Below are positions 10,052-42,515 of a stretch of 46,592 nucleotides of DNA, piece by piece; within the stretch, counting starts at the first letter, position 1, and the number at the start of each line of letters is the position of its first letter. The stretch covers positions 1-46,592 of the forward strand of contig NZ_JAVDDV010000023.1 in the NCBI RefSeq assembly GCF_030848565.1, in the 5' to 3' direction. Source of the stretch: Natronolimnohabitans sp. A-GB9. GTDB lineage: Archaea; Halobacteriota; Halobacteria; Halobacteriales; Natrialbaceae. The translations under genes and the position numbers were made by a program. The notes beneath the pieces were generated by a model that was given only the letters and a program-made list of their open reading frames with translations, made no database searches and was not told where the DNA came from.

Positions 10052-11389
10052 TTATGCGTCCTCGTCGACCGAGTCGATCAGCGCCGCGACCGCGTGTGCG
10101 CCCCGCTCTGGCGCTCGGAACGTCGGAATTCCGGCTGCCTCCATCTGGAGGCGCTCCTCCTCGAAACCTTCTGCTGGGCCGGCGACTGTAAAGATGATCG
10201 GCTTGTCGACGTTTTCGGCAAGCGCCTCGAGTTCCTCGACTGGGTAGCCCAGCGAGTCCTCGTAGATCTCGTAGACGATAACCATGTCGACGTTGTCGTC
10301 GCGGCCGACGGCGTCGATGACCTGGCCGAACTCGGGTAGTGGCCGTCCGGTGTCGACCGGGTTCTCCGTGTAGGTGATTCCCTGCAGCAGGTCGTCGACA
10401 CGCTGTTGGGTCTCCGCTTCCAGATCCGGGAACTTGGCACCGCGTTCGTCGAGTTCGTCGGAGATGATGATCCCCGGCCCAGCCTGGGCGGTGACGACGC
10501 CGACGTTTTTCCCGTCCGGAGTCGGCGTGTCCGCGATCGCACGGCTGGCGTCTAGGAGTTCAGTCACCGAGGAGACGAAGACGACGCCCTCATCGGCGAG
10601 CGCCTCCTCGTAGGTCTCGCGGTCCTGAATCGGGGCACCGGTGTGTGACTGGACGAACTCGCTTAGGTCCTCGCTGCCGGCCTTGTACGCGACGATCGGC
10701 GTCTCAGCTTCCCGACAGACCTCGATGAAGTTATCGATGTCGTCGGTACCCTCGATGTGGAGTGCGATCGCGTCGGTGTTCGGATCGTCGTCGAGCACCG
10801 GAATCAGCTCGGCAAAGCCGGTGTTCGCTCGGTTGCCGAGGCCGAACATCGCTGACACGCCGTACTCCTCGCGATCTAACTGGAACGAGGACGTAACGCC
10901 GACGCCACCGCTTTGGGCGAGCAAAGCGACGTTCCCCGTCTCGACTTCACGGATCTGTGGAACGAACGAGCCGTAGAGATCCAGATGCGGGATACAGTAT
11001 CCGGCCGTGTTCGGGCCGAGGATCGTCATGTCGTACTCCTCGCCGATTCGAACGACTTCGTCCTCGAGTTCCTGTCCGTCCTCGTCGACTTCCGCGAAGC
11101 CGCCGGCGAAGATCACCGCTGCGCCGATGCCTGCTTCGCCACACTCCTCTAGAACCTCCGGCACGACGGGGCTGGGAACACAACACAGTGCCAGATCGGC
11201 GTCGACGTCGTGGACCGAGTCGACGAACTCGTAGCCGTAGACCTCTCCCGAACTGGAGGGGTTGACCGGGTAGACGTCGCCGTCGTAGGTGCGAATGTTT
11301 GTCATCGCATCGTTTCCGAGTTTGCCCTCGGTTTTCGACGCGCCGATGACGGCGATTCCGTCCGGATCGAAGAAGTCAGTTACACCCAT
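10052..11389 (-). CDS. ADP-forming acyl-CoA synthetase, alpha-subunit type
   Basis: A 445-residue protein like the alpha subunit of archaeal ADP-forming acetyl-CoA synthetases, which conserve the energy of acyl-CoA thioesters as ATP. A CoA-binding Rossmann domain leads (residues about 5-130, FFDPDGIAVIGAS), followed by two succinyl-CoA-synthetase-like domains. The phosphorylated histidine of the family is His249 in the motif SHTGA, so the catalytic step looks intact. No ATP-grasp beta subunit is encoded nearby; the partner must lie elsewhere. Within this window it could process acyl-CoA products of the catabolic genes. A TATA-like box (reverse strand, about 11412-11421) supports the leaderless start at 11389. 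Confidence 0.85.
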   Translation of the reverse strand: MGVTDFFDPDGIAVIGASKTEGKLGNDAMTNIRTYDGDVYPVNPSSSGEVYGYEFVDSVHDVDADLALCCVPSPVVPEVLEECGEAGIGAAVIFAGGFAEVDEDGQELEDEVVRIGEEYDMTILGPNTAGYCIPHLDLYGSFVPQIREVETGNVALLAQSGGVGVTSSFQLDREEYGVSAMFGLGNRANTGFAELIPVLDDDPNTDAIALHIEGTDDIDNFIEVCREAETPIVAYKAGSEDLSEFVQSHTGAPIQDRETYEEALADEGVVFVSSVTELLDASRAIADTPTPDGKNVGVVTAQAGPGIIISDELDERGAKFPDLEAETQQRVDDLLQGITYTENPVDTGRPLPEFGQVIDAVGRDDNVDMVIVYEIYEDSLGYPVEELEALAENVDKPIIFTVAGPAEGFEEERLQMEAAGIPTFRAPERGAHAVAALIDSVDEDA

Positions 11390-12388: not shown

Positions 12389-12497
12389 ATACTGTTGGAC
12401 AGCACGATTCGACGATCAGTCGCGCGACTGCGGCCGTCCCGCGGGTGACAGCCGCGAGTTCGCGACCGACGTCTCACTGACTGCTGTCCAACAGTAT
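12389..12497 (+). repeat. Dispersed 109-bp element with palindromic inverted ends (copy 1)
   Basis: The ends are exact inverted repeats: ATACTGTTGGACAGCA at 12389-12404 and its complement at 12482-12497. Each end is itself a near-palindrome of the form ACTGTC-N-GACAGC. The interior (GC-rich, with ACCCGCGGG near its centre on the reverse strand) can fold back. The reverse complement matches copy 2 at 27900-28009 along most of its length, by eye about three quarters of positions, and copy 3 is at 37176-37290. No coding capacity is present, so it is either a MITE-like element or a looped operator pair. The rest of the gap 12024-12760 shows no gene. Confidence 0.75.
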
Positions 12498-14954: not shown

Positions 14955-14956
14955 TA

Positions 14957-15322: not shown

Positions 15323-15382
15323 ACGAGTCGGCCGCCTTCCGGTTTCGATCGGCTCGAACGAGCCGTACGCGTTTCTAGTAAT

Positions 15383-15403
15383 ACTGCCAGACAGTAGTCC
15401 GTA
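15383..15403 (+). repeat. 21-bp motif, copy 1 (ACTGCCAGACAGT then 1 nt and GTCCGTA)
   Basis: This motif begins with a near-palindrome (ACTGCC-A-GACAGT) and ends in GTCCGTA. Two more copies in the same orientation lie at 24554-24574 and 33105-33125. It resembles the palindromic ends of the 110-bp dispersed element. Here it lies between the convergent Rieske and FAD/Fe-S oxidase genes, so a promoter role at this copy is unlikely. Confidence 0.5.
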
Positions 15404-15480
15404 TGAAACGCCGAAGCCGAACACCGCCTCGAGTGATCGATCCTCGACTCCCACGAACGAAAGAGCGAGCTGACCGTGCG

Positions 15481-19049: not shown

Positions 19050-19445
19050 ATGAGTTTCACACGCACTTGGACCGTCCGGTTCTCGGATACGGACCCGTTC
19101 GGTATCGCTCACTATCCGCGGATGATCGACGTGATTCACGAGACCTCGGATATGTTCATGGAAGAGATCGGCTGGCCCTACTGGGAACTCCACGAGGAAC
19201 ACGAATTAGGTCTTCCACTCGTCTCGATGGATTTCGATTTCCACGGTCAGATCGAAGGCGGCGACGTCGTCGAGATCGAACTCGACGCGACCGTCGGGGA
19301 GTCGAGCGTCCAGTTCGACTACCGGGCGATCCACGACGGTGAGGTCGTCTTCAGCGGAACCGAACACCGGGTGTGTGTCCCGATCAACGGTGATGGCGGC
19401 GTGTCAGTTCCCGACGACCTCCGCGATGCGCTCGAGAGCGTCTAG
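19050..19445 (+). CDS. 4-hydroxybenzoyl-CoA thioesterase-like hotdog protein
   Basis: A 131-residue acyl-CoA thioesterase of the hotdog fold. The signature RFSDTDPFGIAHYPRMIDVIHE carries the catalytic Asp of the 4HBT class (Asp-Pro-x-Gly-x-x-His/Tyr). The family hydrolyses aromatic or short-chain acyl-CoA thioesters. The start at 19050 was preferred over an upstream ATG at 18984 because the TATA-like element at about 19010-19016 places transcription start near 19040. It stands alone between the FAD/Fe-S oxidase and a region of decayed repeats, but the nearby CoA ligase and aldehyde dehydrogenase make a role in aromatic CoA-ester turnover sensible. Confidence 0.85.
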   Translation: MSFTRTWTVRFSDTDPFGIAHYPRMIDVIHETSDMFMEEIGWPYWELHEEHELGLPLVSMDFDFHGQIEGGDVVEIELDATVGESSVQFDYRAIHDGEVVFSGTEHRVCVPINGDGGVSVPDDLRDALESV

Positions 19446-24632: not shown

Positions 24633-25013
24633 TTATTGCTGGCCGTCGACGTAGACGACTCCGTCTTCGACGACGACGTCGAACGTCGGAAGGACGATGT
24701 CGTCGTCGGCGAGTTGCTCGCCCGTCTCGAGGTCGTACGACCAACCGTGCCACGGACAGGAGATGATCGGCTCGTTGTCGTCGTAGTCTTTCTCGACGCG
24801 CTTGCCGGGTTCGACGAACTCGCCGACGAGTTTCCGGCTGACCTGCCCTTCGGCGACCGGACCGCAGTCGTGGAGACACCGGTTCTGGACGGCGTGGAAC
24901 TCACCGTTGACGCGGAGAACGCCGACTTCGATGCCGTTTACGTCGACGAGTTCGCGATCGCCCTCTTCGAACTCCGATTCGGGTTTGACTTCGATCAGTT
25001 CCGTCGTGCTCAT
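24633..25013 (-). CDS. Rieske [2Fe-2S] ferredoxin-like protein (2)
   Basis: A 126-residue single-domain Rieske protein. Ligands are Cys46/His48 (CLH) and Cys86/His89 (CPWHGW), with an extra Cys50. The loop between ligand pairs is 37 residues, again much longer than in standard Rieske ferredoxins. Its start overlaps the stop of the upstream amidohydrolase by four bases (ATGA), so translation is coupled. It mirrors the pair at 13821-15322, but the two Rieske proteins are only distantly alike, so the pairing is conserved more strongly than the sequence. Likely role: electron carrier or redox partner for the same unknown reaction. Confidence 0.87.
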   Translation of the reverse strand: MSTTELIEVKPESEFEEGDRELVDVNGIEVGVLRVNGEFHAVQNRCLHDCGPVAEGQVSRKLVGEFVEPGKRVEKDYDDNEPIISCPWHGWSYDLETGEQLADDDIVLPTFDVVVEDGVVYVDGQQ

Positions 25014-26128
25014 AGGTCGAACACCTCCTGTGCGTTACCCGAGAGGATCTGCTTTTTCTCGTCTTCCGAGAGGAACGGGAGGTCGGTGACCGTCGTCGGT
25101 CGGTCGTAGTCCCAGTGTGGGTAGTCCGAAGCGTACATCAGGCTGTCGGCACCGACCATGTCGAAACACTTCTCGAGGTATTCGGGGTCGGCCGAGATCT
25201 CGAGGGGCTGGGTGCCGTAGTAGAAGTCCTTGATGTACTCGCCGGGCTTTTTCTCGAGCAGCGGCGCTTCTTCGGGGCGCTTGAGGTACTCCTCGTCGAG
25301 TCGCGTGATCAGGCCGGGGATGTAGGTGATGCCCGACTCCATGAAGACGATGTCCAGGTCGGGGAACTTCTCGGGGACGCCCTGGACGACGAGGCTGACG
25401 ATCTGAGACATGTTCGACTCCAGGAAGCCGAGCGTGTGGGTCTCGAGCATCTCCTGGTAGCCGGCACGGACGTACTCGTCGAGACCGGCACCGCCGGTGT
25501 GGAAGACCGCCGGAAGGCCGAGCTCTTCACACCGCTCGTAGAGCGGGTCGTACTTGCGGTTGCCAAGCGGTGGCGTCGCACCGGCGGTGACGAAACAGGC
25601 ACCGACGTATTCCTCTTCGCCTTCGATCCGATCGAGGATCTCGAGGGAGGCGTCGACGTCGCCGTAGGGGATGGGCGCGAGCCCGTGAATGCCGTCGTCG
25701 GGGTCGAGGACCTCCTCTTGCATGTACTCGACGTAGGCCTTCGCGAACGCGCTCTGGCGGTCGTCGTCGGCGGTCGTTCCGGCGCCCGCGAGGATGAGAT
25801 GCGAGATCAGCAGCGTCTCGTCGACGCCGATGGACTCCATCCCTTCACGGATCCGCTCGGGCGTCTCGGGCTCGTCTGGGTACGAGGAGTGTTCGCGGGT
25901 GATCTTCCCGTGGGCCTGGCGGTCGCCGGTCGAGAAGGGGAAGAACGAACTGAGGTTTTGCTTTGCGCCTTTCTCGTCGAAGTTGCTCTCCTCGAACTTC
26001 GTCTTCCAGGGCTCTTCCATGTACTCGGCGACGTCGTGGAACGACTCCATGTAGTGACAGTCGCCGTCGATGACGTGATACCGGTCTAGTGCCTCTTGAT
26101 TCGGCTGGCTCTCGTCGGATTCCAGCAT
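25010..26128 (-). CDS. Amidohydrolase-2 family protein (2), metal-dependent
   Basis: A 372-residue amidohydrolase_2 protein. The N-terminal metal motif is Asp23-x-His25 (VIDGDCH), the mid-barrel His is in AVFHTGG, and the late Asp is in MYASDYPHWD. The His that copy 1 shows in EGGHWW is replaced here by ESGITYIP, so the metal site or the substrate may differ. The C-terminus, KKQILSGNAQEVFDL, closely matches that of copy 1. It is the first gene of a two-gene unit with the Rieske protein. The start at 26128 has a TATA-like box about 25 bases upstream on the reverse strand, with a palindrome beside it (listed separately). Confidence 0.83.
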   Translation of the reverse strand: MLESDESQPNQEALDRYHVIDGDCHYMESFHDVAEYMEEPWKTKFEESNFDEKGAKQNLSSFFPFSTGDRQAHGKITREHSSYPDEPETPERIREGMESIGVDETLLISHLILAGAGTTADDDRQSAFAKAYVEYMQEEVLDPDDGIHGLAPIPYGDVDASLEILDRIEGEEEYVGACFVTAGATPPLGNRKYDPLYERCEELGLPAVFHTGGAGLDEYVRAGYQEMLETHTLGFLESNMSQIVSLVVQGVPEKFPDLDIVFMESGITYIPGLITRLDEEYLKRPEEAPLLEKKPGEYIKDFYYGTQPLEISADPEYLEKCFDMVGADSLMYASDYPHWDYDRPTTVTDLPFLSEDEKKQILSGNAQEVFDL

Positions 26129-26387: not shown

Positions 26388-27191
26388 TCAAATCCAGGGA
26401 CGATCTCCGTCGGGGTACTCCGCGTGGACGTTGACTTCGATGGCGTTTGCCGCCCGCATGACCTTCTCCGGGAACTCCTCGCGGAAGCGGTCGCCGCTCC
26501 AGTTACTCGCCGACCCCGAGAGACTGACTGCTCCGAGGACGTGCTCACCGTCGTAGAGGATCGGAGCGCCGACCGCACGGATCCCCTGCATCTGTTCCTG
26601 ATCGTTCAGTGCGAACCCGCGTTCCCGGATGTCCTCGAGTTCCGCGGCGAGTTCGTCGGGATCCGTGATCGTCGAGGACGTATAGGAGACGAGCCCGTGG
26701 TCGTGGATGATCTCCGCGACTCGGTAGTCCGGCATGTGGGCGAGAATCGCCTTCCCCGCCGAAGTACAGTGGAGGTGGGTCTGTGGCCGGTCTCGTTTCC
26801 GTGGATGAAACTCCGTCCCGATCGCGTCCTCGCCGAACGCCTCGTGTAACACGACCAGTCGGCCGTCGTACTCGGTCATGAGGTGTGCGGTGGCGTTGCT
26901 GCCGTGTGCGAGTCGGTGGAGCTCCGCTTTGGCGGCCCGATAGAGGTCGTTTTGCAACCGAACGTGTTCCCCGTAGGGTAGTAGCTCGAGGCCGAGTCGG
27001 TACTCCCCGTCGTATTTGCGGACGAATCCACGTGACTCGAGGGTCGCGAGATACGTGTGTGCCGTCCCTGGCGACAATCCGACGGCGTCGGCTAGCGCCG
27101 AAACCGTCGTTCCTCCTGTCTCTCGCAGGTGCTCGAGGATGTCACAGACCCTATCGGCGGACTGAATTCGTCGCGGTTCGTCCGGGCTCAT
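26388..27191 (-). CDS. IclR family regulator (2)
   Basis: A 267-residue IclR-type regulator with a winged helix (SADRVCDILEHLRETGG, then GLSPGTAHTYLATLESR, residues about 10-75) and an effector domain ending near 250 (TSAGKAILAHMPDYRVAEI and the late GAVSLSGSASNW). The start at 27191 (MSPDEPRR) was chosen over an ATG 33 codons upstream, since the extra part is hydrophobic and unlike the family. It lies upstream of the amidohydrolase/Rieske unit 2 on the same strand, with a gap of 259 bases. Its upstream gap of about 0.9 kb holds two repeats of other kinds. Confidence 0.88.
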   Translation of the reverse strand: MSPDEPRRIQSADRVCDILEHLRETGGTTVSALADAVGLSPGTAHTYLATLESRGFVRKYDGEYRLGLELLPYGEHVRLQNDLYRAAKAELHRLAHGSNATAHLMTEYDGRLVVLHEAFGEDAIGTEFHPRKRDRPQTHLHCTSAGKAILAHMPDYRVAEIIHDHGLVSYTSSTITDPDELAAELEDIRERGFALNDQEQMQGIRAVGAPILYDGEHVLGAVSLSGSASNWSGDRFREEFPEKVMRAANAIEVNVHAEYPDGDRPWI

Positions 27192-27708
27192 ACTGCAGGC
27201 GATGGCTCCGAGGTCCAAGACTCTTTTGCTCACATCAAACGGTCCGACCGACTTCGGATAACCATACAAAATAGCGATAGCTAATCGCACTGCATGAAAC
27301 TACAGTTTTCACGTATATCTCGTAAATATACTCTTGCTATGACTGGTAGGAATATCATAGTGACGACTGAACCGGGTTACCTATCCGATCGACTTGGTAT
27401 TGGCGTCCAGGTGGTAACCACGAGTTGAACGTCCGGTGTGTTCGTCGTACGTTCGACCGTTCCTTACATCCATACTACTGTAAATTCTGAACGGACGTTG
27501 GAATCATCGACGCAGTATCTAGCTATCTCCCCACTATATTCGGGCGAATTACAAAAATCGTCCAAAACGAGTGTACGGATATTTGTGTAACGCGATATGC
27601 CAATCTTTCGAGTATTGTAATACACAAGTCTTGAATCCGAGTGTCCGCGCGTACGCGTATTCACGGCGTGTCCGTCGTACTGTACATCTCTTCCCGCTGT
27701 CCAAACCG

Positions 27709-28941: not shown

Positions 28942-30177
28942 ATGAGCGGAGATACGACTGATAAACCAGCACTGGTCGCGGGCGCTGGACCCGTCGGTAT
29001 GACGGCCGCACTCGCGTTGAACGCACGCGGTATCGATACGGCGATCCTCGAGGCGGAGCCAGAGGATCGGGACCGAGCGGGAAGCCGCGCGATCTACGTC
29101 CACGGCGCGACGCTGCGGACGTTCGAGCGAATCCATCCCGGGCTCGGTACGGACCTCGTCGACGAGGGCCTCGTCTGGCCGACTCGCCGAACGCTGTACA
29201 AGGGCAAGGAAGTATTCAACCGGACGTACAACTCGCCGGGTGGATCGGGTGACATCCCACACTTCACCAGCATTCCACAGGTCGTCACCGAGCAGTACAT
29301 GCTCGAGGCACTCGAGGAAGCCGGCATCGAGATCCACTGGGAGTCGGAGGTCGCCGCCGTCGACTCCTCGCCCGACGGCGTCACCGTCGAGACGACCGAC
29401 GGCGACGTGTGGGAAACGGAGTATCTGATCGGTGCTGACGGCGCCGGTTCGACGGTTCGCAAGGAGATCGGCGCGAACTTCGAGGGCGATCAGTCCGAGA
29501 ACGCCTTCATCATCGCCGACATCGAGGACGAGGAGATCGACGACGATCACCCCGACCTCGAGCGGCTGTTCCACTACGATGCACCCGAAGCCGACGGTCG
29601 CAACGTCTTGCTCGTCCCCTTCACGGGCGGCTGGCGGCTCGACATCCAGTGTATCGAGGGCGACGACCCCGAAGAACTCAGCAGCGAAGAGCGGATGCGG
29701 GAGTTCGTCAGCGACATCATGGGCGAGGAGTACGCCGACGACCTGCAGTGGGTCTCGACGTATCACTTCCTTCAGGTCCAGGCGGACACGTTCGTCGACG
29801 AACACCGCCGCGTGCTGCTCGCCGGCGAGGCGGCCCACCTGCTTGCCCCCTTCGGTGCACGCGGGATGAACTCCGGGGTTCCAGACGCTGACGAGGCCGC
29901 CTCGGCCATCTCGGTCGCACTCGACGCACAGACGGAAGCAGTCGCACACAACGAAGTCGAACTGTTTGCGGCACGCCGCGAGAAGGCCGCCGAGTACAAC
30001 ATCGGCGCGGCCGGCCAGGCCCTCGAGTACCTCCAGGGCGACGACCCGGTGACGGTGCTTCGCAAGGAGGTCGCCGCCGAGATGTCCGACCACTTCGAAA
30101 CCGCCGGTGAGTGGCTCGACGACGCACCGTACGGCCCCCACGAGGGGCCACCGATCGTCTCGACCGGCAACTACTAA
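28942..30177 (+). CDS. FAD-dependent aromatic monooxygenase (PHBH type)
   Basis: A 411-residue single-component flavoprotein hydroxylase. The FAD/NADH fold begins with GAGPVGMTAAL (residues about 14-24), the second motif GADGAGSTVRKEIG is near 160, and the third is AGEAAHLLAPFGARGMNSG (about 290-308), with GE in place of the usual GD. The family hydroxylates phenolic acids or related aromatics using NAD(P)H and O2, often to give gentisate-like diphenols. The ATG at 28942 follows a palindrome-like GTGGACAACCAC (28894-28905) and a weak TATA-like element. It lies 0.8 kb upstream of the SDR and cupin genes, which could be its partners. Confidence 0.87.
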   Translation: MSGDTTDKPALVAGAGPVGMTAALALNARGIDTAILEAEPEDRDRAGSRAIYVHGATLRTFERIHPGLGTDLVDEGLVWPTRRTLYKGKEVFNRTYNSPGGSGDIPHFTSIPQVVTEQYMLEALEEAGIEIHWESEVAAVDSSPDGVTVETTDGDVWETEYLIGADGAGSTVRKEIGANFEGDQSENAFIIADIEDEEIDDDHPDLERLFHYDAPEADGRNVLLVPFTGGWRLDIQCIEGDDPEELSSEERMREFVSDIMGEEYADDLQWVSTYHFLQVQADTFVDEHRRVLLAGEAAHLLAPFGARGMNSGVPDADEAASAISVALDAQTEAVAHNEVELFAARREKAAEYNIGAAGQALEYLQGDDPVTVLRKEVAAEMSDHFETAGEWLDDAPYGPHEGPPIVSTGNY

Positions 30178-30374
30178 GCGCGCACTGAAACCGTTTTCCG
30201 CGGTCGACACTCGTTTTCGACGGACTGGCTCCGACTACCGGTTCACTCGAGTACGACGTCTCGAATGTGAGCCACAGCCCTCGCCGACTCTGCCTTCTGA
30301 TCTTCGATGGACAGCAGCGCGACTCGTCGATCGATGCCTATGAAAAGGAGACAGGTCGTTCGATCTCCAGTCTG

Positions 30375-30698
30375 TTAGACCAGATCCAGTCGCTTGGCGA
30401 CCCAGTGGTCACGGGCGGCCAGCACGAACGATTCCTCGTCGTCGAACTCGGTCGACTCGGCGACGAACTCGTCCCACCGGCCGTGGGGGACGGTCTCGAG
30501 GTCGGCGGCGGAGTCGGCCTCGCTTGGACTGGCTGCGACCAGTTCGTCGAACGACCCGAACTCGGTTCGTTCCTGAACGAACGCGTCGTCGAACACGTCT
30601 TCGATCGGGACTTCCTCGTCTTCGTCGTAGACGTCGTCGACGTCCGGAAGGTCCTCTTGCTTCGCTGTAACGTCCTCGATGTCTGTCTCGAGTACCAT
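30375..30698 (-). CDS. Hypothetical acidic protein
   Basis: A 107-residue protein with very many Asp and Glu and no known domain by eye (start MVLETDIEDVTA). It has no membrane segment or signal. The start at 30698 was chosen over an upstream ATG at 30737, whose extra residues read as a non-conserved hydrophobic tail. It lies between the monooxygenase and SDR genes on the opposite strand, so it is not part of their operon. The codon and acidic composition fit a genuine haloarchaeal gene. Confidence 0.5.
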   Translation of the reverse strand: MVLETDIEDVTAKQEDLPDVDDVYDEDEEVPIEDVFDDAFVQERTEFGSFDELVAASPSEADSAADLETVPHGRWDEFVAESTEFDDEESFVLAARDHWVAKRLDLV

Positions 30699-30993
30699 AC
30701 TCGTAGTTAGATCCAGGTCTATGTAAATCCATTCCATTTGTTGTCGGTGCTTGTAATGCGAATCGATGTTTCGGTCGATCAGTTCACGCCACCGACGCCC
30801 CTGCAGTCACCGAGCCCCGATGACACGTCCCGAATTCTGATTATCGACGAGTTCGTACACCACGTATGGTCTGTGTAACTGATGCGAGACGACAGTCACA
30901 CACAGTGATCCCTCGTCCGAACCGAATCGGTGACGGTAGCGGACTGCGACGCGGGATCGGACACGGCCGTTCGGACGTCCACGGGGGTGGCGC

Positions 30994-31875
30994 ATGACTG
31001 ACCCAGCGTATCTCGTCGGCGGCGGCGGGCGTGGTCTCGGTGCTGCCACCGCATGGGAACTCGCAAGCGAGGGGGCGAACGTCGTGGTCTCCGATCTCGG
31101 AACCGCGGTCGACGGTAGCGGTTCGGATCCGGAACCGGCCCGCGAGGTCGCCGCGTCGATCGACGACGAGATCGATGGGGCGTCTGCGGTCGCTCACTTC
31201 GGCGACGCCGCCGATGCCGACGACGCCGCGGACGCCATCGAAACGACCCTCGAGGCGTTCGGCCGGCTAGACGGCGTCGCAAACTTCGCGGGAATCCTCC
31301 GCGACGGTATGTCCTGGACGTTGTCCGACGAGGACTGGGACGAGGTCGTCCGCACTCACCTCCGAAGCAATTTCACGCTGTTGCGAAGCGCGGTCGGACA
31401 CTGGCGGGAAGCGGACGATCCGCCCACGGATCGATCGTTTCTGGCCGTCAGCTCCAAGGGTGCGCTGGGTAACGTCGGTCAACTCGCCTACGCGAGCGCG
31501 AACGCCGGGATCCTCGGGTTCGTCCGTGCGGCCTCGACGGAGCTTCACCGCCAGGACGTTCGGGTCAACGCGCTCGTGCCCAACGGCTACACGCGGATGA
31601 CCGAGTCGATCCCCGAAGAACATCGCCCGTACACGCGCGAGGAGATGCCGCCCGAGGACGTCGCTCCCGCCGCGGCGTACCTGCTGAGCGAGGCGGCCGC
31701 CGACGTTACCGGTGTTACGGTGACGGCCGCGGGCGACGAGATCGGGATCCTTTCGGAGCCGCGTCAGACCCGGATCGGTGTCGCCGAGGACGGCTGGACG
31801 GTCGATTCGATCGACGAGACGTTCGACTCGCTCACTGCGGGCTACGAGACTACACGGACGGACCGCTTCCTGTAA
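30994..31875 (+). CDS. Short-chain dehydrogenase/reductase lacking the catalytic lysine
   Basis: A 293-residue SDR. The cofactor loop is GGGGRGLG (residues about 9-16) and the NAG-like motif is NFAG (97-100). Ser153/154 and Tyr166 occupy the catalytic positions, but the Lys of the usual YxxxK motif is Asn170 (YASAN). The codon is clearly AAC, so this is not a reading slip. The family reduces or oxidises hydroxyl or keto groups of acyl or ring substrates. The start ATG at 30994 is preceded by no strong TATA-like box. It is followed by the cupin dioxygenase on the same strand, 102 bases away, so co-function in aromatic breakdown is likely. Confidence 0.8.
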   Translation: MTDPAYLVGGGGRGLGAATAWELASEGANVVVSDLGTAVDGSGSDPEPAREVAASIDDEIDGASAVAHFGDAADADDAADAIETTLEAFGRLDGVANFAGILRDGMSWTLSDEDWDEVVRTHLRSNFTLLRSAVGHWREADDPPTDRSFLAVSSKGALGNVGQLAYASANAGILGFVRAASTELHRQDVRVNALVPNGYTRMTESIPEEHRPYTREEMPPEDVAPAAAYLLSEAAADVTGVTVTAAGDEIGILSEPRQTRIGVAEDGWTVDSIDETFDSLTAGYETTRTDRFL

Positions 31876-31977
31876 GAGCCGTCCGCTCCCGAAACTCCAC
31901 GATGTGGTAGCCGCTCTCGATTCCGAACCTCGGGATCCTCCAACACACTTATGATGATTCTTCCGGAAGTATCCAGT

Positions 31978-33063
31978 ATGGCAGAGCAAGAGCCCGAAGA
32001 CCGCATAGAACTGACTTCGGATACTCGGGACCTCCTCGAGGAGAACAATCTCCGGCCGTTGTGGGAGGTCGAGAACACGATGGGAACCGTCTACGACGAC
32101 CTCGAAGCGGAGATCTGGAAGTGGGACGATATCAAGCAGGTGATCGACAACGTCGAAGAGGACATGCCCATCGAGGAGCTCCCGCCGGGCTTTCAGCGCC
32201 GGGTTGCCGTCCCGATCAACACCGGGATGGACAACGCCATCTCGAACACGATCTACGTCGGTGTCCAGACCGTCTCGCCGGGTGAGACGGCGCCGTCCCA
32301 CCGCCACGGAGCCAATGCTCTGCGCTTTACGATCGACGGTCACGAAGACATGAAAACGGTCGTCGCGGGCGAGGAGTTCCCCATGGAGAACAACGACCTC
32401 ATCACGACGCCTCAGTGGGAGTGGCACGACCACGTCAACGATTCCGACGAGACGGCGATGTGGCTCGACGTACTGGATCTGCCGCTGGTGCTCGACTCGC
32501 TGAACGCCTCGAACGTCTTCGAGAACCACGAACTCGAGCGCCAGCCGGTCACCAAGACCCAGGGCTATTGGGACTCCCAGTACGGACAGGCACGACCTCC
32601 TGAAGCGTCCAAAAGCGACGGGATCCCCGGACCGTTCGAGGGAATCCGCGAGCCGACGCCGCCCCACCGCTTTAGCTGGGAGGAGACTATCCAGACGCTT
32701 CGTCAGCGTGCGGACAACAACACGCCCGACCCCTACGATGGGTACAACATGGCCTACGTCAACCCGACGACGGGCCAGCCGCCGCTGTTCCCGACGATGT
32801 CGTTCCGGGCCCAACTCCTCCAGGAGGAAACCGAGGCCCACTTCCACAACGCCACGGAGGTCTACTTCGTCATCGAGGGTGAAGGCGCGACCCACGTCGG
32901 TGGCGAGACCCTCGAGTGGGGACAGTGGGACATCTTCGTGATCCCGCCGGACGAGCCACACCACCACGAACCCGACGGCGAGGAAGCGATCCTCCTGGGT
33001 ATGACCGACCGTCCGGTGTTCGAGGCGTTCAACTTCTACGCCGAGTCCGCCATCGACGAGTAA
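31978..33063 (+). CDS. Gentisate 1,2-dioxygenase-type double cupin
   Basis: A 361-residue bicupin of the gentisate/salicylate/1-hydroxy-2-naphthoate dioxygenase group, Fe(II) enzymes that open the ring between the carboxyl-bearing carbon and the neighbouring hydroxylated carbon. The N-terminal cupin carries the family signature HRHGANALRFTIDG (His108, His110) and WEWHDH (His150), the expected metal ligands. A second cupin follows (about 270-350, HFHNATEVYFVIEG, PPDEPHHH). The start at 31978 is preferred: a TATA-like element lies about 25 bases upstream (near 31949-31956), with a palindrome CTTCCGGAAG between them. Which phenolic acid is used cannot be told from sequence. Confidence 0.87.
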   Translation: MAEQEPEDRIELTSDTRDLLEENNLRPLWEVENTMGTVYDDLEAEIWKWDDIKQVIDNVEEDMPIEELPPGFQRRVAVPINTGMDNAISNTIYVGVQTVSPGETAPSHRHGANALRFTIDGHEDMKTVVAGEEFPMENNDLITTPQWEWHDHVNDSDETAMWLDVLDLPLVLDSLNASNVFENHELERQPVTKTQGYWDSQYGQARPPEASKSDGIPGPFEGIREPTPPHRFSWEETIQTLRQRADNNTPDPYDGYNMAYVNPTTGQPPLFPTMSFRAQLLQEETEAHFHNATEVYFVIEGEGATHVGGETLEWGQWDIFVIPPDEPHHHEPDGEEAILLGMTDRPVFEAFNFYAESAIDE

Positions 33064-33088
33064 TACTCCCGAACAACCACGACTCGTC

Positions 33089-33125
33089 TTCCGGTTGTGC
33101 CGGAACTGGCTTCCGGCAGTCCGTA
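33089..33125 (+). promoter_or_regulatory. TTCCGG/CCGGAA sites and 21-bp motif copy 3
   Basis: Three half-sites with 11-base phasing lie here: TTCCGG (33089), CCGGAA (33100) and TTCCGG (33111), just upstream of a TATA-like element near 33126-33132 for the zinc ribbon gene. The same stretch contains the third copy of the 21-base motif (33105-33125, ACTGGCTTCCGGCAGT then CCGTA). A related arrangement, CCGGATTGGCTTCCGG, occurs at 33343-33358 just after that gene. A dimeric regulator could bind here. Confidence 0.5.
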
Positions 33126-33158
33126 TCCTTTATGCGTCGGTGTCCCTAGAAAATCAGT

Positions 33159-33341
33159 ATGGCAGAGTTCGAGAACCCGTACGCGGAGCACGATCCGTTC
33201 GTCCGGGCACACTTCGACTGTCTGGACTGTGGTGGCAAGCTCTGGGAGTACGCGATCGACGGACAGATGGTGTGTGAAGACTGTCGCAGTGTGTTCCCGT
33301 CGGAAGACGTCTTCGACGATCAGATCGAGGCAAGCGGCTGA
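33159..33341 (+). CDS. Small zinc-ribbon protein
   Basis: A 60-residue protein with two CxxC knuckles: Cys21/Cys24 (CLDC) and Cys39/Cys42 (CEDC). It starts MAEFENPYAEHDPF. Small double-knuckle proteins are abundant in haloarchaea, and some regulate or stabilise partner proteins. The start follows a TATA-like element (near 33126-33132), giving a short leader of roughly 8-10 bases. It sits between the cupin dioxygenase and FAH hydrolase genes on the same strand and probably belongs with them. Confidence 0.8.
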   Translation: MAEFENPYAEHDPFVRAHFDCLDCGGKLWEYAIDGQMVCEDCRSVFPSEDVFDDQIEASG

Positions 33342-33490
33342 CCGGATTGGCTTCCGGCTCCCCACTCGCCGAAGTGGCGACTCGAGTCGCAGTCCTGCTC
33401 CGGTTTCGGGAGCGAAATCCTTCACCATTTTTCGGACGGGCAAAATCCGAGAAAGGATGATTTATGTGGGCGCGTCGCAGTGGTTCTACC

Positions 33491-34369
33491 ATGCGACTCG
33501 TCAGATTCAACGACGATCGACTCGGCCTGCTGACCGACGACGACGGTATCGTCGACGTCACCGACGAACTCGGTCTCGAGACGAACGACCCGCTCAAGGA
33601 GTACGCTCGCAAGGACCTCGATGCCAGCGAGTACGAAGAGGAGGACGCCGACTACGACCGTGAAGAGGTAACCATCGAATCGCCCGTCCGCCGACCCGGT
33701 AAGGTCATCGCCGCGCCGCTGAACTACGAAAACCACGTCGAGGAGGCGCTGGCCGACAAGGACATCGTCACCGAGGAGTGGTTCACCATCGAGGACAAGG
33801 GCTACTTCCTCAAAGCCCCCTCGAGCGTCGCCGGTCCCGAAGACGGTATCGAACTCCCCTTCAACGACCGACGCGTCGACCACGAGATCGAACTCGCGTT
33901 CGTCATGGGTGAGGACGTCAAAGACATCGACGCCGAGGACGTCTGGGACGCCGTCCTGGGGTACACCATCCTGCTCGACGTCTCCGTCCGCGGTGACCAG
34001 GACCGTTCCAACCGCAAGTCCTACGATACGTTCACCATTATCGGTCCCTGCGTCACGACGCCCGACGAGTTCGACGACCCCCACGATCTCGAGATGGAAC
34101 TCCAGCTCAACGGCGAGACCAAACAACAGCAAAACACCGGCGGGATGATCTACAGCTGTGCCGACGTCGTCGAGTACGCCTCGATCGGCGCGACGATCGA
34201 AGCCGGCGACGTCATCACTACTGGGACGCCGGAAGGCGTCAGCCCGCTCGCCGACGGCGACACCATCGACGCCGAGATCGAAGACGTTGGCCAGATGACC
34301 GTCGACGTCACCGAACGCGACGTCGCCTTCGAGGACGTCGACGTCCAGAAGAGCCAGCAAGACAACTAA
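33491..34369 (+). CDS. FAH family hydrolase (fumarylpyruvate hydrolase type, 1)
   Basis: A 292-residue member of the fumarylacetoacetate hydrolase family. The metal-site motif is visible as VDHEIELAFVMG, with downstream DQDRSN and the product-loop region TTGTPEGVSPLADGD. In gentisate pathways such enzymes split fumarylpyruvate or maleylpyruvate to pyruvate plus a C4 acid. A start at 33491 is preferred over 33464 because the TATA-like element (atttatg, about 33459-33465) would lie inside the longer version. It follows the cupin and zinc-ribbon genes on the same strand. No maleylpyruvate isomerase gene is visible nearby. Confidence 0.85.
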   Translation: MRLVRFNDDRLGLLTDDDGIVDVTDELGLETNDPLKEYARKDLDASEYEEEDADYDREEVTIESPVRRPGKVIAAPLNYENHVEEALADKDIVTEEWFTIEDKGYFLKAPSSVAGPEDGIELPFNDRRVDHEIELAFVMGEDVKDIDAEDVWDAVLGYTILLDVSVRGDQDRSNRKSYDTFTIIGPCVTTPDEFDDPHDLEMELQLNGETKQQQNTGGMIYSCADVVEYASIGATIEAGDVITTGTPEGVSPLADGDTIDAEIEDVGQMTVDVTERDVAFEDVDVQKSQQDN

Positions 34370-34567: not shown

Positions 34568-36115
34568 CTATTCGGCGAAGTACTCCGTCTGGACCGTCTC
34601 CCGCTCGATGGTGCCGGTGTCGGTTCGCGGAAGCGAGTCTTCTATTACGACGTACTCGCGTGGGCGTTTGAAATTCGCCAGTTCGTCGTGGTTCTTGCAG
34701 AATCGGTCGAGATCGTCGGTCTCGAGGTCTTCGGACTCGGTACAGACCACACAGGCGACACGGTGGCCCCACTCCTCGTCCTCGAGACCGACGACGGCGG
34801 CTTCCTCGACGTCTGTGTGGCCTTCGATGACCTCCTCGACCTCCTCGGGATAGATGTTCTCGCCGCCGCTGACGATCATGTTGTCGATACGACCGACGAT
34901 ATACAGGAAGCCATCCTCGTCGACGTCGGCGCAGTCACCCGTCCGGATCCACTCGTCGTCGACGAGCAGCCAGTCGGCTGCCTCCGGGCGGTCCATGTAG
35001 CCGTCACACGTGCCGGGGCCGCGAACGAGAACCTCGCCAGTCTCGCCGGGAGCGACCGTTGCTTCGGGATCGGGCTCGTCGTCGGGATCGACGGCCTCGA
35101 CGACCCGGACTTCGGAAACGAACGACTCCTTGCCGATCGTCCCTGGATGCTCGGCCTGAACCGACGGATGGGCGAAGGTCAGGTTCGGCCCGCCCTCGGT
35201 CAACCCGTAGGTGTTGTAGATGCCCTCGGTCAGGTACGTCGAGGCCTTTTCGACGAGCGACTCCGTGACGATCGAACCGCCGGTCCGGATATACGAGAGG
35301 GAGTCGATGTCGTACTCGGCCTCGCGCTGGCAGTCTGCCAGTGCGTGTAGCTGGGTTGGGACGGCGAGGACGCCGGTGACGTCGTGGTCGTCGGTGAGTC
35401 GCAACGCCTCGTCGGGGTCGAAGTCGGACTGGACGACCAGCGTCGCCCCCGCCTGAAGGTGTGGGAGGATCCAGGCGTCACAGGTCACCATGTGATACCA
35501 CGGTGACGTGACCAACGCCGTGTCCGTCTCCTCGATTCCCATCTCCATGACCACCTGGGTGCTGCCGTGCCACAGCTGTTCCTGGTCGAACAGCACTGCC
35601 TTCGGCGTGCTCGTCGTCCCACTCGTGTAGAACACGCCGTGTTCGTACTCCGGATCCGGCTCGACGTCGGCCGTCGAGGCATCCGAGAGAACGACGTCGT
35701 AGGAGTCGACGGCTTCGTGATCGATCGGTTTCTCGCCCGCGTGAATCCCATACTCGAGGGCGGAGCGATCGAGGACCTCGAGGGCCGTGTCGGCGTTTTC
35801 GTCGTCGAAGACGAGAACGGCCGCGTCAGTCGGCTCGAGCATCGAGACGAGTCCGCCTGGACTGTCGCGAAACGGAAGTTGCACGTTGCCGATCCCACGC
35901 TTTTGACTCGCGATCATCGTCTCGATCGCCGCGTAGCCGTTGTTCGCGAGAGTTGCGACTCGACGATCGGCGACCTGCTCGTTCAGGGCGTTTGCGAGCC
36001 GCGTCGTCCGCTCGTCTAACTCCCCGTATGTCACCGACTGACCGTCGTCGAAGACGAGGGCGATATCCGACGAATGTCGCCGGACGGAGCGGTTGAAGGA
36101 ATCGATGAAATACAT
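34568..36115 (-). CDS. AMP-dependent acyl-CoA synthetase/ligase, A10 lysine replaced
   Basis: A 515-residue adenylate-forming enzyme. The P-loop is YTSGTTSTPK (163-172), followed by YNTYGLTEGG and the hinge region GRIDNMIVSGGENIYPEE. The A10 core normally ends LPRTxxGK with an essential Lys; here it is LPRTDTGTIER, with Thr502 in place of Lys. The codon reads ACC on the coding strand. This Lys is normally needed to form the acyl-adenylate, so activity may be reduced or altered. It is convergent with the FAH hydrolase gene. A near-palindrome, GGTGACCGTTACC (36129-36141), lies between a TATA-like element (about 36150-36158) and the start. Confidence 0.83.
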   Translation of the reverse strand: MYFIDSFNRSVRRHSSDIALVFDDGQSVTYGELDERTTRLANALNEQVADRRVATLANNGYAAIETMIASQKRGIGNVQLPFRDSPGGLVSMLEPTDAAVLVFDDENADTALEVLDRSALEYGIHAGEKPIDHEAVDSYDVVLSDASTADVEPDPEYEHGVFYTSGTTSTPKAVLFDQEQLWHGSTQVVMEMGIEETDTALVTSPWYHMVTCDAWILPHLQAGATLVVQSDFDPDEALRLTDDHDVTGVLAVPTQLHALADCQREAEYDIDSLSYIRTGGSIVTESLVEKASTYLTEGIYNTYGLTEGGPNLTFAHPSVQAEHPGTIGKESFVSEVRVVEAVDPDDEPDPEATVAPGETGEVLVRGPGTCDGYMDRPEAADWLLVDDEWIRTGDCADVDEDGFLYIVGRIDNMIVSGGENIYPEEVEEVIEGHTDVEEAAVVGLEDEEWGHRVACVVCTESEDLETDDLDRFCKNHDELANFKRPREYVVIEDSLPRTDTGTIERETVQTEYFAE

Positions 36116-36253: not shown

Positions 36254-37021
36254 CTATCCGTACACGAGTCGAAGTTCGATGTCGTCGACGGCTTCGAGCA
36301 ACGCCCCGTACAGTTCGTCCTCGATGCGGTCTTCGGTGAGACGGTTGGCGGCACCAGCGATCGTCACAGCCGCAACCGGGCGTCCGTCGCTGATGATCGG
36401 CGTCGCGATCGCGTGGAGCCCTCGCAGATCCTCCTGGAAGTTCATCGCGTACCCGCGCTCGCGTGCCGCCTCGAGTTCGTCGAACAACACCTGCCGATCA
36501 GTGATCGTGTTCTCTGTCTGGGCCGGCAGACCGTGACGATCGATGATCTCTTCGACCTCTTCTCTGGGAAGATCAGCGAGAATCGCCTTCCCCGCCGAGT
36601 TCGCGTGGAGGTAGACCCACTTCCCGATCGTCGAATCGAACGAGAACGATTCGTTCTGCGGAACGCCGTAGACGAACATTCCAAGCCCGTTTTCGTGGAC
36701 GATAAGCCAGGCCGCCTCGTCAGTCTCGGCGGCTAACCGGTCGATTCGATCCTTCGCGGCGTGGTAGACCTCGTACTGATTTCGAACGTGGACACCGGTG
36801 TTGAAGAACTCGAGTCCGAGGCGATAGTAGCCGTCTTCGTTGACGACGTATCTATTGCGCTCGAGACTCACGAGATGTTTGTGTACGGTACTTTTTGCCA
36901 ATCCGAGCCGGTCAGCGAGTTCGGTCACTCCTGCGCCGTTGGTCTCTTTAAGGGCTTCTATGATGGCGAACAGTGTGCCATTCGATTTGATTGATCGTCC
37001 AGAACGCTCACGTCCTTCCAT
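36254..37021 (-). CDS. IclR family regulator (3)
   Basis: A 255-residue IclR-type regulator. The winged helix (GTLFAIIEALKETNGAGVT, then GLAKSTVHKHLVSLERNRY) lies at residues about 14-75, and the effector domain (about 80-250) includes HANSAGKAILADLPREE and ATPIISDGRPVAAVTIAGAANR. The start at 37021 follows an AT-rich box at about 37045-37053 on the reverse strand. A palindrome-like site ACCGGAAATTCGGT (37092-37105) sits just upstream. The gene reads toward the CoA ligase on the same strand, 138 bases away, and is the likely regulator of that gene. Confidence 0.9.
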   Translation of the reverse strand: MEGRERSGRSIKSNGTLFAIIEALKETNGAGVTELADRLGLAKSTVHKHLVSLERNRYVVNEDGYYRLGLEFFNTGVHVRNQYEVYHAAKDRIDRLAAETDEAAWLIVHENGLGMFVYGVPQNESFSFDSTIGKWVYLHANSAGKAILADLPREEVEEIIDRHGLPAQTENTITDRQVLFDELEAARERGYAMNFQEDLRGLHAIATPIISDGRPVAAVTIAGAANRLTEDRIEDELYGALLEAVDDIELRLVYG

Positions 37022-38013: not shown

Positions 38014-38736
38014 ATGCGACTCGCACGGATCGCGACTTCCGATGGACCGGTTACCGGACAGTACGACGACGGCGTCGTCCACGCCGACGACGAGAGCTAC
38101 GAAGTCGGCGTCGACGGCGATCTCTTGCCGCCTTGTGAGCCATCGGCGCTGTACTGTGTCGGCCGCAACTACGCGGAAACCTTAGATCAGATGGAGTACG
38201 AGCGCCCCGAGGAACCCGACTTTTTCATCAAGCCGCCGACGTCCCTGGTGGCACACGAGGAGCCGATTCCCTATCCCGAGTTCACGGACGAACTGACCTA
38301 CGCCGGCGAGCTCGCGGCGGTCATCGACGAACCGTGCCACGACGTCTCGGAGGACGAGGTCCCCGACGTCGTCCGTGGGTACACGATCATGAACGACGTC
38401 GACGCCCTCGACCAACAGGGCCGAACCGCACGGAAAGCGTTCGACGGCTCCGGACCGCTCGGCCCGTGGATCGAGACCGATGTCGATCCGACTGGAATCG
38501 ATATGTGGACGGACGTAAGCGGTGAACGACGACAGGACGCAAACACGGAACTGATGTTGTTCGATCCCTACGAGATACTCTCGTATCTCTCGAGACGGTT
38601 TACGTTCCAACCGGGTGACGTCGTCGCGTTCGGCAGCCCTGCGAACCCCGGACTCATCGAACCCGGTGATGCCGTCGAGATCACGTACGAGGGGGTTGGA
38701 ACCCTTCGGAATCGAGTCGTCGATACGGGCGAGTAG
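38014..38736 (+). CDS. FAH family hydrolase (2)
   Basis: A 240-residue FAH-family protein. Recognisable parts are VGRNYAE (residue about 49), FFIKPPTSLVAHEEPI, the metal-binding ELTYAGELAAVID, and VAFGSPANPGLIEPGDAVEI near the end. It is shorter than FAH 1 (292) but complete for the small subgroup, which includes 5-oxopent-3-ene-tricarboxylate decarboxylase/isomerase and fumarylpyruvate hydrolase types. The start ATG at 38014 is natural. It stands alone, with lactate permease further downstream. The exact reaction cannot be read; breakdown of a ring-cleavage product is probable. Confidence 0.83.
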   Translation: MRLARIATSDGPVTGQYDDGVVHADDESYEVGVDGDLLPPCEPSALYCVGRNYAETLDQMEYERPEEPDFFIKPPTSLVAHEEPIPYPEFTDELTYAGELAAVIDEPCHDVSEDEVPDVVRGYTIMNDVDALDQQGRTARKAFDGSGPLGPWIETDVDPTGIDMWTDVSGERRQDANTELMLFDPYEILSYLSRRFTFQPGDVVAFGSPANPGLIEPGDAVEITYEGVGTLRNRVVDTGE

Positions 38737-39109: not shown

Positions 39110-39951
39110 ATGGTTGTAGAGACACTCGCTGCGGCGTTACCGCTGGTGGTCGTCGCAATCTTGATCGTCGGGCTGCTGTGGCCGGCGACGTATGCGATGC
39201 CGATCGCGTGGGGCGTTGCACTCGGGATCGGATACGTCATGTGGAACAATCCCCCCGAGTATCTCGCGGCAGCGTCGATCGTCGGAGTGATGACGGCTCT
39301 CGAGATCCTCTGGATCGTTTTCGGCGCGCTCGTCTTGCTGTATACGCTGATGCAGGCTGGTGCGTTTGATCGGATCAACGAAGGGTTCACGGCGATATCG
39401 GACGATCGACGCGTTCAGATCGTCCTGCTTGGCTTTCTACTCGCGACGTTCATCGAGGGCGCTGCCGGCTTCGGGACGCCGGCTGCGGTCGTCGCACCGC
39501 TGTTGCTCGCGCTTGGGTTCCCGGCGCTTGCAGCGGTGCTCGCTGCGCTGATCGGACACATCATCGCCGTGACCTACGGCGCAGTGGGAACTCCGATCAT
39601 CGTCGGCATCCAGGACCCCCTCGAGAGCGTCGCGTTCACACAGGAGGCGATCCAGGCCGAGGGGATGACCGTCGCCGAGTACTCGGTCGAAGTCGCCGCC
39701 TGGGCAGCCACCTACCACGCGCTGGTCGGGTTCGTGATGCCGCTGTTCGCCGTCGGGATGGTCGTCTACTTCTTTAGCCCGAAAGACGAACGCTCACTCG
39801 AGCCAGCACTCGAGGTCTGGCCGCTCTGTCTGTTCGCGGGGATCGCCTTCGCCGTTCCCTACTGGCTCTCGGCGTGGTTCCTGACGGCCGAGTTCCCGGC
39901 GTTGATCGGATCGATGGTCGGCACCGCGATCGTCATTCCCGCTCTCAAGGC
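39110..39951 (+). pseudogene. lctP: Lactate permease LctP, 5' part (split by insertion sequence)
   Basis: The first 281 codons of an L-lactate permease (LctP, H+ or Na+ coupled import of lactate or glycolate). Hydrophobic helices are numerous, with family stretches [25 protein letters not shown] and [29 protein letters not shown]. The frame is broken at codon 281 by the insertion sequence at 39952-41613. If the element and one copy of the 10-base target repeat are removed, the reading frame continues exactly (IPALKAGYFLPEE), so the gene would then encode 577 residues. The insertion therefore looks recent and the gene is inactive as found. Confidence 0.9.
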
Positions 39952-40113
39952 CTGTCTCTTACCCATAACTCATCTCTACTGAGAAAAATCAACCAAATTC
40001 CGCCCGATATGAATAGATCAGTCAGGAAGGAATCATTATTGATACTGGCTTACGACTTTCAGAGGCTGGACAGTCTGTGACCCTGAACAAAAGCTGGATT
40101 CACGGAGAGTCTC

Positions 40114-40144
40114 GCTGAATGAGCGGCTGTGGCGCTCATTCAGC
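40114..40144 (-). terminator. Hairpin at the transposase 3' end
   Basis: A perfect 12-base stem (GCTGAATGAGCG, 40114-40125, and its complement 40133-40144) with a 7-base loop overlaps the final codons and stop of the transposase. It could end the transposase transcript or block read-through from lctP into the gene from outside. There is no long T-run. Confidence 0.6.
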
Positions 40145-41623: not shown

Positions 41624-42515
41624 GGGGTACTTTCTGCCCGAGGAGAAGTGGGATTTCCCGCCGCGAGAGGAGTGGCCCAGTCACTGGGTCGGAACGATCG
41701 AACCGGGTGAGAACGGCGGTGGAACGACGGCCGCGACGAACGGCGGACGGGCGATGTCGCTGTTCCGAGCGTGGTCGCCGTACATCTTCCTCGTCGTGTT
41801 GCTGGTGATCACCCGCGTGATCGAACCGATCACGGAGTTTTTCACCAGTTCGCTGTTCGTCCTCGAGTGGTCGAACATCCTGGGGACGGGACACGCCGCA
41901 GCGATCGAGTGGGGCCACGCTCCCGGCCTGTGGCTGCTCGTGAGTGCGCTCGTCGCGATCCCACTCTTTGGGATGAACACCGACCAGGTCAGCAAAGCGT
42001 GGCGTGAAGCCGGAGAGAAGATCGTCTCCCCGCTGATCGCGCTCGTGTTCGTTATCGCGATGGTCCAGGTGATGTTGCTCTCCGGTGCCCCCGATAGTGC
42101 GCCGGAGGTCGGAAGTATGATCGAGGTGCTCGCGGTCGCGACCGCAGATGTCTTCGGTCCGGCCTACCCCGCTATCGCGGCGTTGATCGGCGCACTCGCC
42201 GCAGCGATGACCGGATCGAACACCGCCTCGAACATCACCTTCGGTGCGTTCCAGTTCGAGGCGGCGTCAGAACTGGGCTTCCCGACGCAGATCATCGTCG
42301 GTGCACAGGCCGTCGGTGGGGCGATCGGTAACCTCGTCGCGATCCACAACGTCATCGCAGCACTCGCGACCGTCGGCCTCGTCGGCCAGGAGGGACGGAT
42401 TATCCGGCTGAACCTGATTCCGCTGGTCTACTACGCGGTGTTCGTCGGATTCTGGGCGCTGGTGTTCGTCTACATCATGCCCGATGTGTTGCCAGCGGTG
42501 TTCGACGTCTTCTAA
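41624..42515 (+). pseudogene. lctP: Lactate permease LctP, 3' part
   Basis: The remaining 296 codons of the permease, in the frame of GYFLPEEKWDFPPREEWP and then many membrane helices, including the family-typical AMTGSNTASNITFGAFQ and GAQAVGGAIGNLVAIHNVIAAL. The part up to 41753 is in frame with the rest, showing that the whole gene is preserved apart from the insertion. An ATG at 41754 might allow internal initiation, but half a permease would not be functional. Confidence 0.9.

Follow-up and report, generated by a model that had tools for sequence, protein, structure and literature searches.

The window analysed here comprises 46,592 nucleotides of Natronolimnohabitans sp. A-GB9 (NCBI RefSeq assembly GCF_030848565.1, contig NZ_JAVDDV010000023.1, positions 1 to 46,592 of the forward strand; contig C16 of the 4.3 Mb in 72 contigs that we scanned for pathway genes). 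It contains a group of genes for opening an aromatic ring, which raises the question of which aromatic acid enters the route and what becomes of the ring-opened product. The original prediction for positions 28942-34369 was a gentisate-like ring-cleavage route under IclR control. In this study, we consider it probable that the window encodes a haloarchaeal route of the Phg type, in which a carboxyl NIH shift would accompany the conversion of 4-hydroxybenzoate to gentisate and the ring-opened product would then be hydrolysed directly. The genes concerned are as follows:

28942..30177, plus strand: class A FAD monooxygenase (FMO; PF01494), proposed PhgB-like 4-hydroxybenzoyl-CoA 1-hydroxylase yielding gentisyl-CoA.
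30375..30698, minus strand: conserved acidic protein of 107 amino acids, linked to the FMO by co-occurrence; no Pfam match at E<=10.
30994..31875, plus strand: short-chain dehydrogenase (SDR; PF13561), accessory.
31951..33063, plus strand: bicupin gentisate 1,2-dioxygenase (GDO), named on its residues and PDB 2d40, below the TIGR02272 cutoff; in annotations of orthologs the start lies some 27 bases inward (about 31978).
33159..33341, plus strand: zinc-ribbon protein of 60 amino acids with four cysteines (CxxCG...CxxC), a constant neighbour of the GDO.
33464..34369, likely start 33491, plus strand: FAH-fold hydrolase (PF01557; PDB 6jvv), proposed maleylpyruvate hydrolase.
34568..36115, minus strand: AMP-forming CoA ligase (PF00501), proposed 4-hydroxybenzoate-CoA ligase.
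36254..37021, minus strand: IclR-family regulator (PF01614) adjoining the ligase gene; similar IclR genes lie close to the ligase gene in related loci.
19053..19445, plus strand: hotdog thioesterase (PF13279; PDB 5wh9), proposed gentisyl-CoA thioesterase.

From the gene content, the GDO residues, the gene linkage and the relatedness of the enzymes, we infer the substrate, the CoA-bound hydroxylation, the direct hydrolysis, the regulation and the roles of the two small proteins. The CoA ligase would convert 4-hydroxybenzoate to 4-hydroxybenzoyl-CoA. The FMO would hydroxylate C1 of this ester, and the carbon that bears the thioester would move to the adjacent carbon (the carboxyl NIH shift) to give gentisyl-CoA. 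The thioesterase would release gentisate, the GDO would open its ring to maleylpyruvate, and the FAH-fold enzyme would split maleylpyruvate directly into maleate and pyruvate. The IclR regulators probably turn the pathway on, the zinc ribbon may serve the GDO or the gdo gene, and the 107-residue protein may serve the FMO.

The cleavage of the gentisate ring is well supported. We assign the double cupin as a gentisate 1,2-dioxygenase on its catalytic residues rather than on its TIGR02272 score, which is 214.7 bits and below the curated cutoff of 442.1; the Geobacillus and Brevibacillus GDOs likewise fell under this cutoff (310.3 and 349). Residues Q106, H117, H119, H159, H161 and D173 align with Q108, H119, H121, H160, H162 and D175 of the S. 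pomeroyi GDO, and the acid-base and iron residues of the latter are described in passages of PMC4019311. The GDO alignment had 42 rows, 11 bacterial and 31 haloarchaeal including the window (30 distinct, L048 and L081 both being counted); matches of <=60 bits or extracted open reading frames (ORFs) of <=300 amino acids, L059, L084 and L103 among them, were left out. The three iron histidines that had been predicted are indeed present, and H117, H119 and H159 are kept in all 42 rows. The bacterial GDOs 2d40 and 3bu7 share this 3-His iron site of the N-terminal cupin as well as the acid-base residues. Y102 is the tyrosine that most GDOs have at the specificity site, not the tryptophan of salicylate dioxygenase, and the closest PDB relatives are GDOs (2d40, E 4e-48).

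The FMO is tightly linked to this dioxygenase. We searched 391 Halobacteria genomes (E<=1e-30 for the GDO, E<=1e-120 for the FMO and E<=1e-8 for the zinc ribbon). The GDO was found in 64 genomes and the FMO in 64, and 62 of the 66 genomes having either had both; G038 and G069 had the GDO without the FMO, and G187 and G261 the FMO without the GDO. The linkage is not by chance, and the p-values of the Fisher tests overstate independence because the genomes share ancestry and clusters are passed among them. G069, which bears a ribbon, matches the Natrinema salinisoli plasmid locus L043 in the position of its GDO; in L043, a 699-residue protein resembling a fused salicylyl-CoA 5-hydroxylase is encoded at 14631-16730 (562 bits against a cutoff of 1078). 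This locus lacks the window's FMO yet retains the GDO, zinc ribbon, FAH enzyme and thioesterase, so that one CoA-dependent front end has apparently been swapped for another. G038 has a GDO of 48% identity in a different setting, with an IclR gene adjoining it and an AMP-forming ligase in the neighbourhood; the FMO was absent from that genome at E<=1e-60 and from the 9 scanned of the 31 listed neighbourhood ORFs.

The bacterial relatives of the FMO point to its substrate. Scanning named genomes with the FMO alignment left 80 loci, of which 33 were bacterial. The window's FMO is 44-54% identical to its bacterial relatives and 48-51% identical to the Geobacillus and Brevibacillus enzymes, which are encoded near a ligase, a thioesterase and a GDO. 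In Geobacillus jurassicus (L098) the order is IclR, IclR, ligase, FMO, thioesterase, FAH, DinB and GDO; in Brevibacillus (L099) it is FMO, thioesterase, a 195-residue ORF, GDO, FAH, an unscanned 394-residue ORF and ligase. A GDO lies in the fetched stretch of 12 of the 33 bacterial loci. In the FMO tree (loci from L050 on, excluding L062, L081, L084, L091, L118 and L120; arbitrary root), a GDO is encoded in the fetched stretch for all 8 Bacillota rows, and the two other Bacillota loci, L118 and L120, end close to the FMO at contig ends. The FMO of a gammaproteobacterial metagenome-assembled genome (L097), whose locus also has GDO and FAH genes, is the sister of the 43 archaeal FMOs. From these relatives and partners, we propose that the FMO would hydroxylate CoA-bound 4-hydroxybenzoate, not free salicylate or 3-hydroxybenzoate.

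The phgABC genes of Zhao 2018 reportedly come from Brevibacillus. The encoded ligase, hydroxylase and thioesterase attach 4-hydroxybenzoate to CoA, hydroxylate it with a carboxyl shift and free the product as gentisate (passages of PMC7862547, citing Zhao 2018). In an archaeon, Haloarcula D1, an NIH shift was reported for 4-hydroxybenzoate (Fairley 2002, as far as the available part of that report goes). The phgABC route combines a ligase, an FAD hydroxylase and a thioesterase with a GDO, as the window does, and the related FMOs of Brevibacillus and Geobacillus have such genes in their neighbourhood. In contrast to phgABC, the loci of haloarchaea also hold the zinc ribbon and, in many cases, the 107-residue protein and an ADP-forming-type CoA ligase.

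The ligase and thioesterase were followed in the 30 haloarchaeal loci that had been fetched and whose GDO shows at least 70% identity, with up to 10-20 kb of flanking sequence. Because contig ends cut some of these loci short, the gene counts are lower bounds; L062 and L081, the same records as L047 and L048, were excluded here and from the 51 haloarchaeal FMO loci discussed below. The zinc ribbon was present in 29 loci, the FMO and the FAH enzyme in 26 each, the thioesterase in 21 and the SDR in 4. AMP-forming ligases (at least 50% identity) occurred in 18, and ligases of the AMP or ADP type at any identity in 28. The ligase, FMO and thioesterase are all encoded near the GDO within the window, the thioesterase 9.5 kb off. 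Feruloyl-CoA synthetase and 4-chlorobenzoyl-CoA ligase are among the top PDB matches of the ligase, and the thioesterase matches the 4-hydroxybenzoyl-CoA thioesterase 5wh9 (E 1.2e-8). In other haloarchaea, relatives of the thioesterase adjoin the zinc ribbon and GDO, and the window's thioesterase is 58-85% identical to four haloarchaeal ones. The ligase and thioesterase probably belong to the gentisate route. Of the pathway originally drawn, the ring cleavage is well supported; the ligase and thioesterase had been omitted, and the SDR, which had been included, was rejected as a core step since it occurs in so few loci.

Three further genes of the window belong to this comparison:

26388..27290, minus strand: second IclR-family regulator (PF01614).
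12761-13534: further IclR gene.
10052..11389, minus strand: CoA-binding/succinyl-CoA-ligase-like protein of the ADP-forming acyl-CoA synthetase type (PF13607, PF13380).

The ADP-forming-type ligase has a homolog of at least 45% identity in 25 of the 30 GDO loci, and an IclR gene of at least 35% identity to one of the window's occurs in 24. Control of the pathway by IclR is probable, with the correction that all three IclR genes lie outside 28942-34369, the range originally given.

The ring-opened product is the second part of the question. The best PDB match of the FAH enzyme is the maleylpyruvate hydrolase 6jvv (E 1e-49), and the next enzyme follows at 1.7e-34. No maleylpyruvate isomerase had been visible in the window, and this agrees with the genome: the MDMPI and DinB models had no match, and MaiA reached 20 bits against a cutoff of 171. 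Direct hydrolysis is likely because the closest solved relative is a maleylpyruvate hydrolase and three models found no isomerase. The original prediction had left the choice between direct hydrolysis and an unrelated isomerase; the former, giving maleate and pyruvate, is the better option and the simplest reading. A further difference from phgABC is that the three models found no isomerase gene in this genome. The FAH fold is common to the window's enzyme and the HbzF-type hydrolase 6jvv, the former being haloarchaeal and known from its sequence. HbzF has been combined with gentisate dioxygenases for maleate production, according to the part of PMC5658364 available.

Alternatively, an enzyme not recognised here could isomerise the product first, and the FAH enzyme would then be a fumarylpyruvate hydrolase. 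DinB is the fold of some thiol-dependent isomerases, and Geobacillus encodes a DinB-type protein between its FAH enzyme and GDO. With the family models at or near nothing in this genome and a maleylpyruvate hydrolase as the best PDB relative, we regard an isomerisation step as rather improbable and retain direct hydrolysis. The maleate formed would need a further route. The D-2-hydroxyacid dehydrogenase-like protein at 15481-18564 might oxidise D-malate. This protein and another at 42667-45657 are large and resemble FAD plus Fe-S 2-hydroxyacid dehydrogenases, the second as judged by eye; at >=60% identity, the first has relatives in 13 of the 30 GDO loci and the second in none. Two candidates for maleate isomerase were set aside. 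The Amdase-family match on contig C67 (134.8 bits) was not counted, the adjacent gene that precedes it presumably being hydantoinase B-like, and the Asp/Glu racemase near the GDO in L042 fell below the cutoffs of its best models.

Several observations weigh against the proposed route from 4-hydroxybenzoate. In the tree, the Bacillota FMO clade is separate from the archaeal FMOs, in a half shared with actinobacterial and other bacterial FMOs, and 19 of the 22 FMOs of this actinobacterial and other bacterial set have no GDO in the locus. The window's FMO is 51% identical to the B. panacihumi FMO of a matching cluster, but the two stand in separate clades. With 44-49% identity, the Streptomyces FMOs resemble it almost as closely as the Brevibacillus ones (48-51%) do, and strict orthology to PhgB is therefore uncertain; given the tree topology, the Phg reaction is argued mainly from common gene sets and co-occurrence and less from orthology. 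The FMO passed no curated cutoff among the best 25 of its 67 NCBIfam matches (PRK08132, 242 of 416 bits). The ligase of G. jurassicus is PaaK-like, and the window's thioesterase lies 9.5 kb from the FMO and is 25-28% identical to the thioesterases of the bacilli. FAH-family substrates are difficult to assign. The GDO scored slightly better as 5-aminosalicylate dioxygenase (5e-65) than as gentisate dioxygenase (1.6e-63), both below cutoff, and one Streptomyces relative of the FMO lies within a cluster containing pabB. When phgABC was introduced into Pseudomonas, no gentisate was obtained, as a passage of PMC7862547 states, and other haloarchaea are said in the accessible part of PMC6140281 to degrade p-hydroxybenzoate by ortho cleavage via catechol or protocatechuate.

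Some of these points would suit a route in which the gentisate trunk is kept and the FMO acts on another acid or its CoA ester, such as salicylate, 3-hydroxybenzoate or 4-aminobenzoate. Class A FMOs differ in substrate; the Streptomyces relative near pabB, the actinobacterial relatives mostly without a GDO and the resemblance of the GDO to 5-aminosalicylate dioxygenase are in line with such a route. However, salicylyl-CoA hydroxylases form a different, two-domain family, which occurs in the sole ribbon-bearing GDO genome without this FMO, and the Bacillota relatives of the FMO lie in clusters of ligase, FMO, thioesterase and GDO. We therefore think another FMO substrate unlikely and keep 4-hydroxybenzoate. 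The pabB-containing cluster (L045:6539-14047, on a Streptomyces goshikiensis plasmid) has a 47% FMO relative with pabB, a class IV aminotransferase and AMP-binding proteins, followed by desaturases. It is apparently biosynthetic, which suggests a natural product derived from 4-aminobenzoyl.

The zinc ribbon follows the GDO almost without exception. It was found in 63 of the 64 GDO genomes, that is, in all except G038, and in none of the 327 genomes without a GDO at E<=1e-8; at E<=0.001, weak matches appeared in two more family genomes, G099 and G124. All 64 ribbon copies, both of those in G238 included, lie 41-250 bp from a GDO. Only 2 of 31 GDO loci lacked it, L056, where the GDO lies at the locus edge, and L084, where the GDO is broken over several frames (11652-12401); L084 also has an FMO match (73%) and a match to the 107-residue gene. 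Among 20 aligned ribbon sequences, 27 of 61 columns are invariant, all four cysteines among them. The ribbon passed no Pfam family cutoff, and its predicted structure (mean pLDDT 70) had only weak PDB matches of the zinc-ribbon type, the best at E 0.67. It fits the definition of CPxCG microproteins (<100 amino acids, a CxxCG pattern and a Cys/His pattern 7-40 residues away). In the literature searched, in which subscription papers were mostly lacking, no mention of a link between ribbon and GDO was found.

The known haloarchaeal CPxCG microproteins, Brz among them, are likewise very small, have two Cys/His pairs and lie beside a gene that they possibly serve, whereas the present ribbon is tied to a ring-cleavage dioxygenase. 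Brz, encoded beside bop, is required for bop mRNA, and its authors propose that other such proteins control neighbouring genes (passages of PMC2253796). The ribbon could act locally on transcription of the gdo gene, as a regulator of the Brz type, and not as a partner of the GDO protein. The Brz precedent and the CxxCG and CxxC patterns, which match the Brz authors' definition, favour this role; nothing speaks directly against it, and the steady proximity to the GDO and the invariant columns suit either role. We hold the chances of a regulatory role to be even, and an action of the ribbon on the GDO enzyme itself is equally open. Of 14 Haloferax zinc-finger microproteins that were produced, 5 were zinc-free, according to the available part of PMC11241148.

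The 107-residue protein is tied to the FMO in a similar manner. Its gene lies on the minus strand among the plus-strand genes and had been called unrelated, which does not hold: among 125 family genomes, strong matches (E<1e-36) were confined to the 22 that bear this FMO and were found in every one of these, with 23 copies for 23. The rest of the original gene list, namely the FMO, SDR, double cupin, zinc ribbon and FAH enzyme on the plus strand, was found in place. Nineteen of the 23 copies lie within 350 bp of the FMO and two about 2 kb away; the other two are about 15 kb from the FMO but about 400 bp from the GDO. One genome, G019, has two FMO and two 107-residue copies, one of each on contigs C2 and C3. 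Another 10 family genomes, all without this FMO, carry homologs of weaker similarity (24-38% identity, E 4e-4 to 3e-10). The protein was found in 39 of the 51 haloarchaeal FMO loci, within 700 bp in 38 of them; it was missing from the deeper FMO branch of the Halobacterium and Halarchaeum type, from the Halorussus and Halobaculum loci L044 and L049 and from the metagenome-assembled locus L083. This indicates that it accompanies only part of the FMO family. Its model is helical (mean pLDDT 76), with no significant PDB match (one at E 9.4), and is uninformative.

The GDO has a further feature of its own. The haloarchaeal GDOs retain H297, H299, E303 and H337 in the second cupin, the L076 row stopping before H337. 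E303 stands in all 31 haloarchaeal rows of the alignment and likewise in all of the 24 family GDOs. In contrast, the 11 bacterial GDOs, which are 25-36% identical to the window's, all lack this glutamate and so the full His-His-Glu-His motif. That each subunit binds a second metal is only predicted. A strict tie between this site and the zinc ribbon was rejected, as the GDO of G038 has the site without a ribbon. XylT re-reduces or loads the iron of catechol dioxygenases, and by analogy the haloarchaeal GDO could be a two-metal bicupin that needs the 60-residue metal protein to load or re-reduce its iron, while the carboxyl-shifting FMO of many haloarchaea would work with the 107-residue partner. 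We offer this combination very tentatively and hold it doubtful. If true, these two dependencies on accessory proteins are not seen in the bacterial loci examined. In Haloferax volcanii, HVO_A0090, annotated as a GDO, was 13.4-fold up under iron starvation, as stated in the available part of PMC11349517.

Other genes of the window were also noted. Two pairs of an amidohydrolase (PF04909) and a Rieske ferredoxin gene lie at 13821-15322 and 24633-26128, and an IclR gene is found close to each pair. The second amidohydrolase has relatives in 5 of the 30 GDO loci, the first in 2. At 38014-38736 lies another FAH-fold hydrolase (PF01557), with a relative of at least 50% identity near the GDO in just 1 of the 30. 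The transposase-like gene at 40136-41560 interrupts what we take, from the translations by eye, to be a lactate permease, in pieces at 39110-39982 and 41754-42515.

4-Hydroxybenzoate is a plant-derived acid. The pathway is of a known kind in a known group, and its genes can now be assigned. What is new is the tie of the zinc ribbon to the GDO by near-perfect co-occurrence, the tie of the 107-residue protein to the FMO, and the full second-cupin metal motif of the haloarchaeal GDOs, which was missing in 11 of 11 bacterial GDOs compared. The window would provide candidate genes for the haloarchaeal carboxyl NIH shift of 4-hydroxybenzoate that, in the part of the report available, was described in 2002. 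It also assigns each of two small, uncharacterised proteins to a particular enzyme, and because the co-occurrence of ribbon and GDO is nearly perfect, the role of one of the many haloarchaeal zinc-finger microproteins can be tested by a single deletion.

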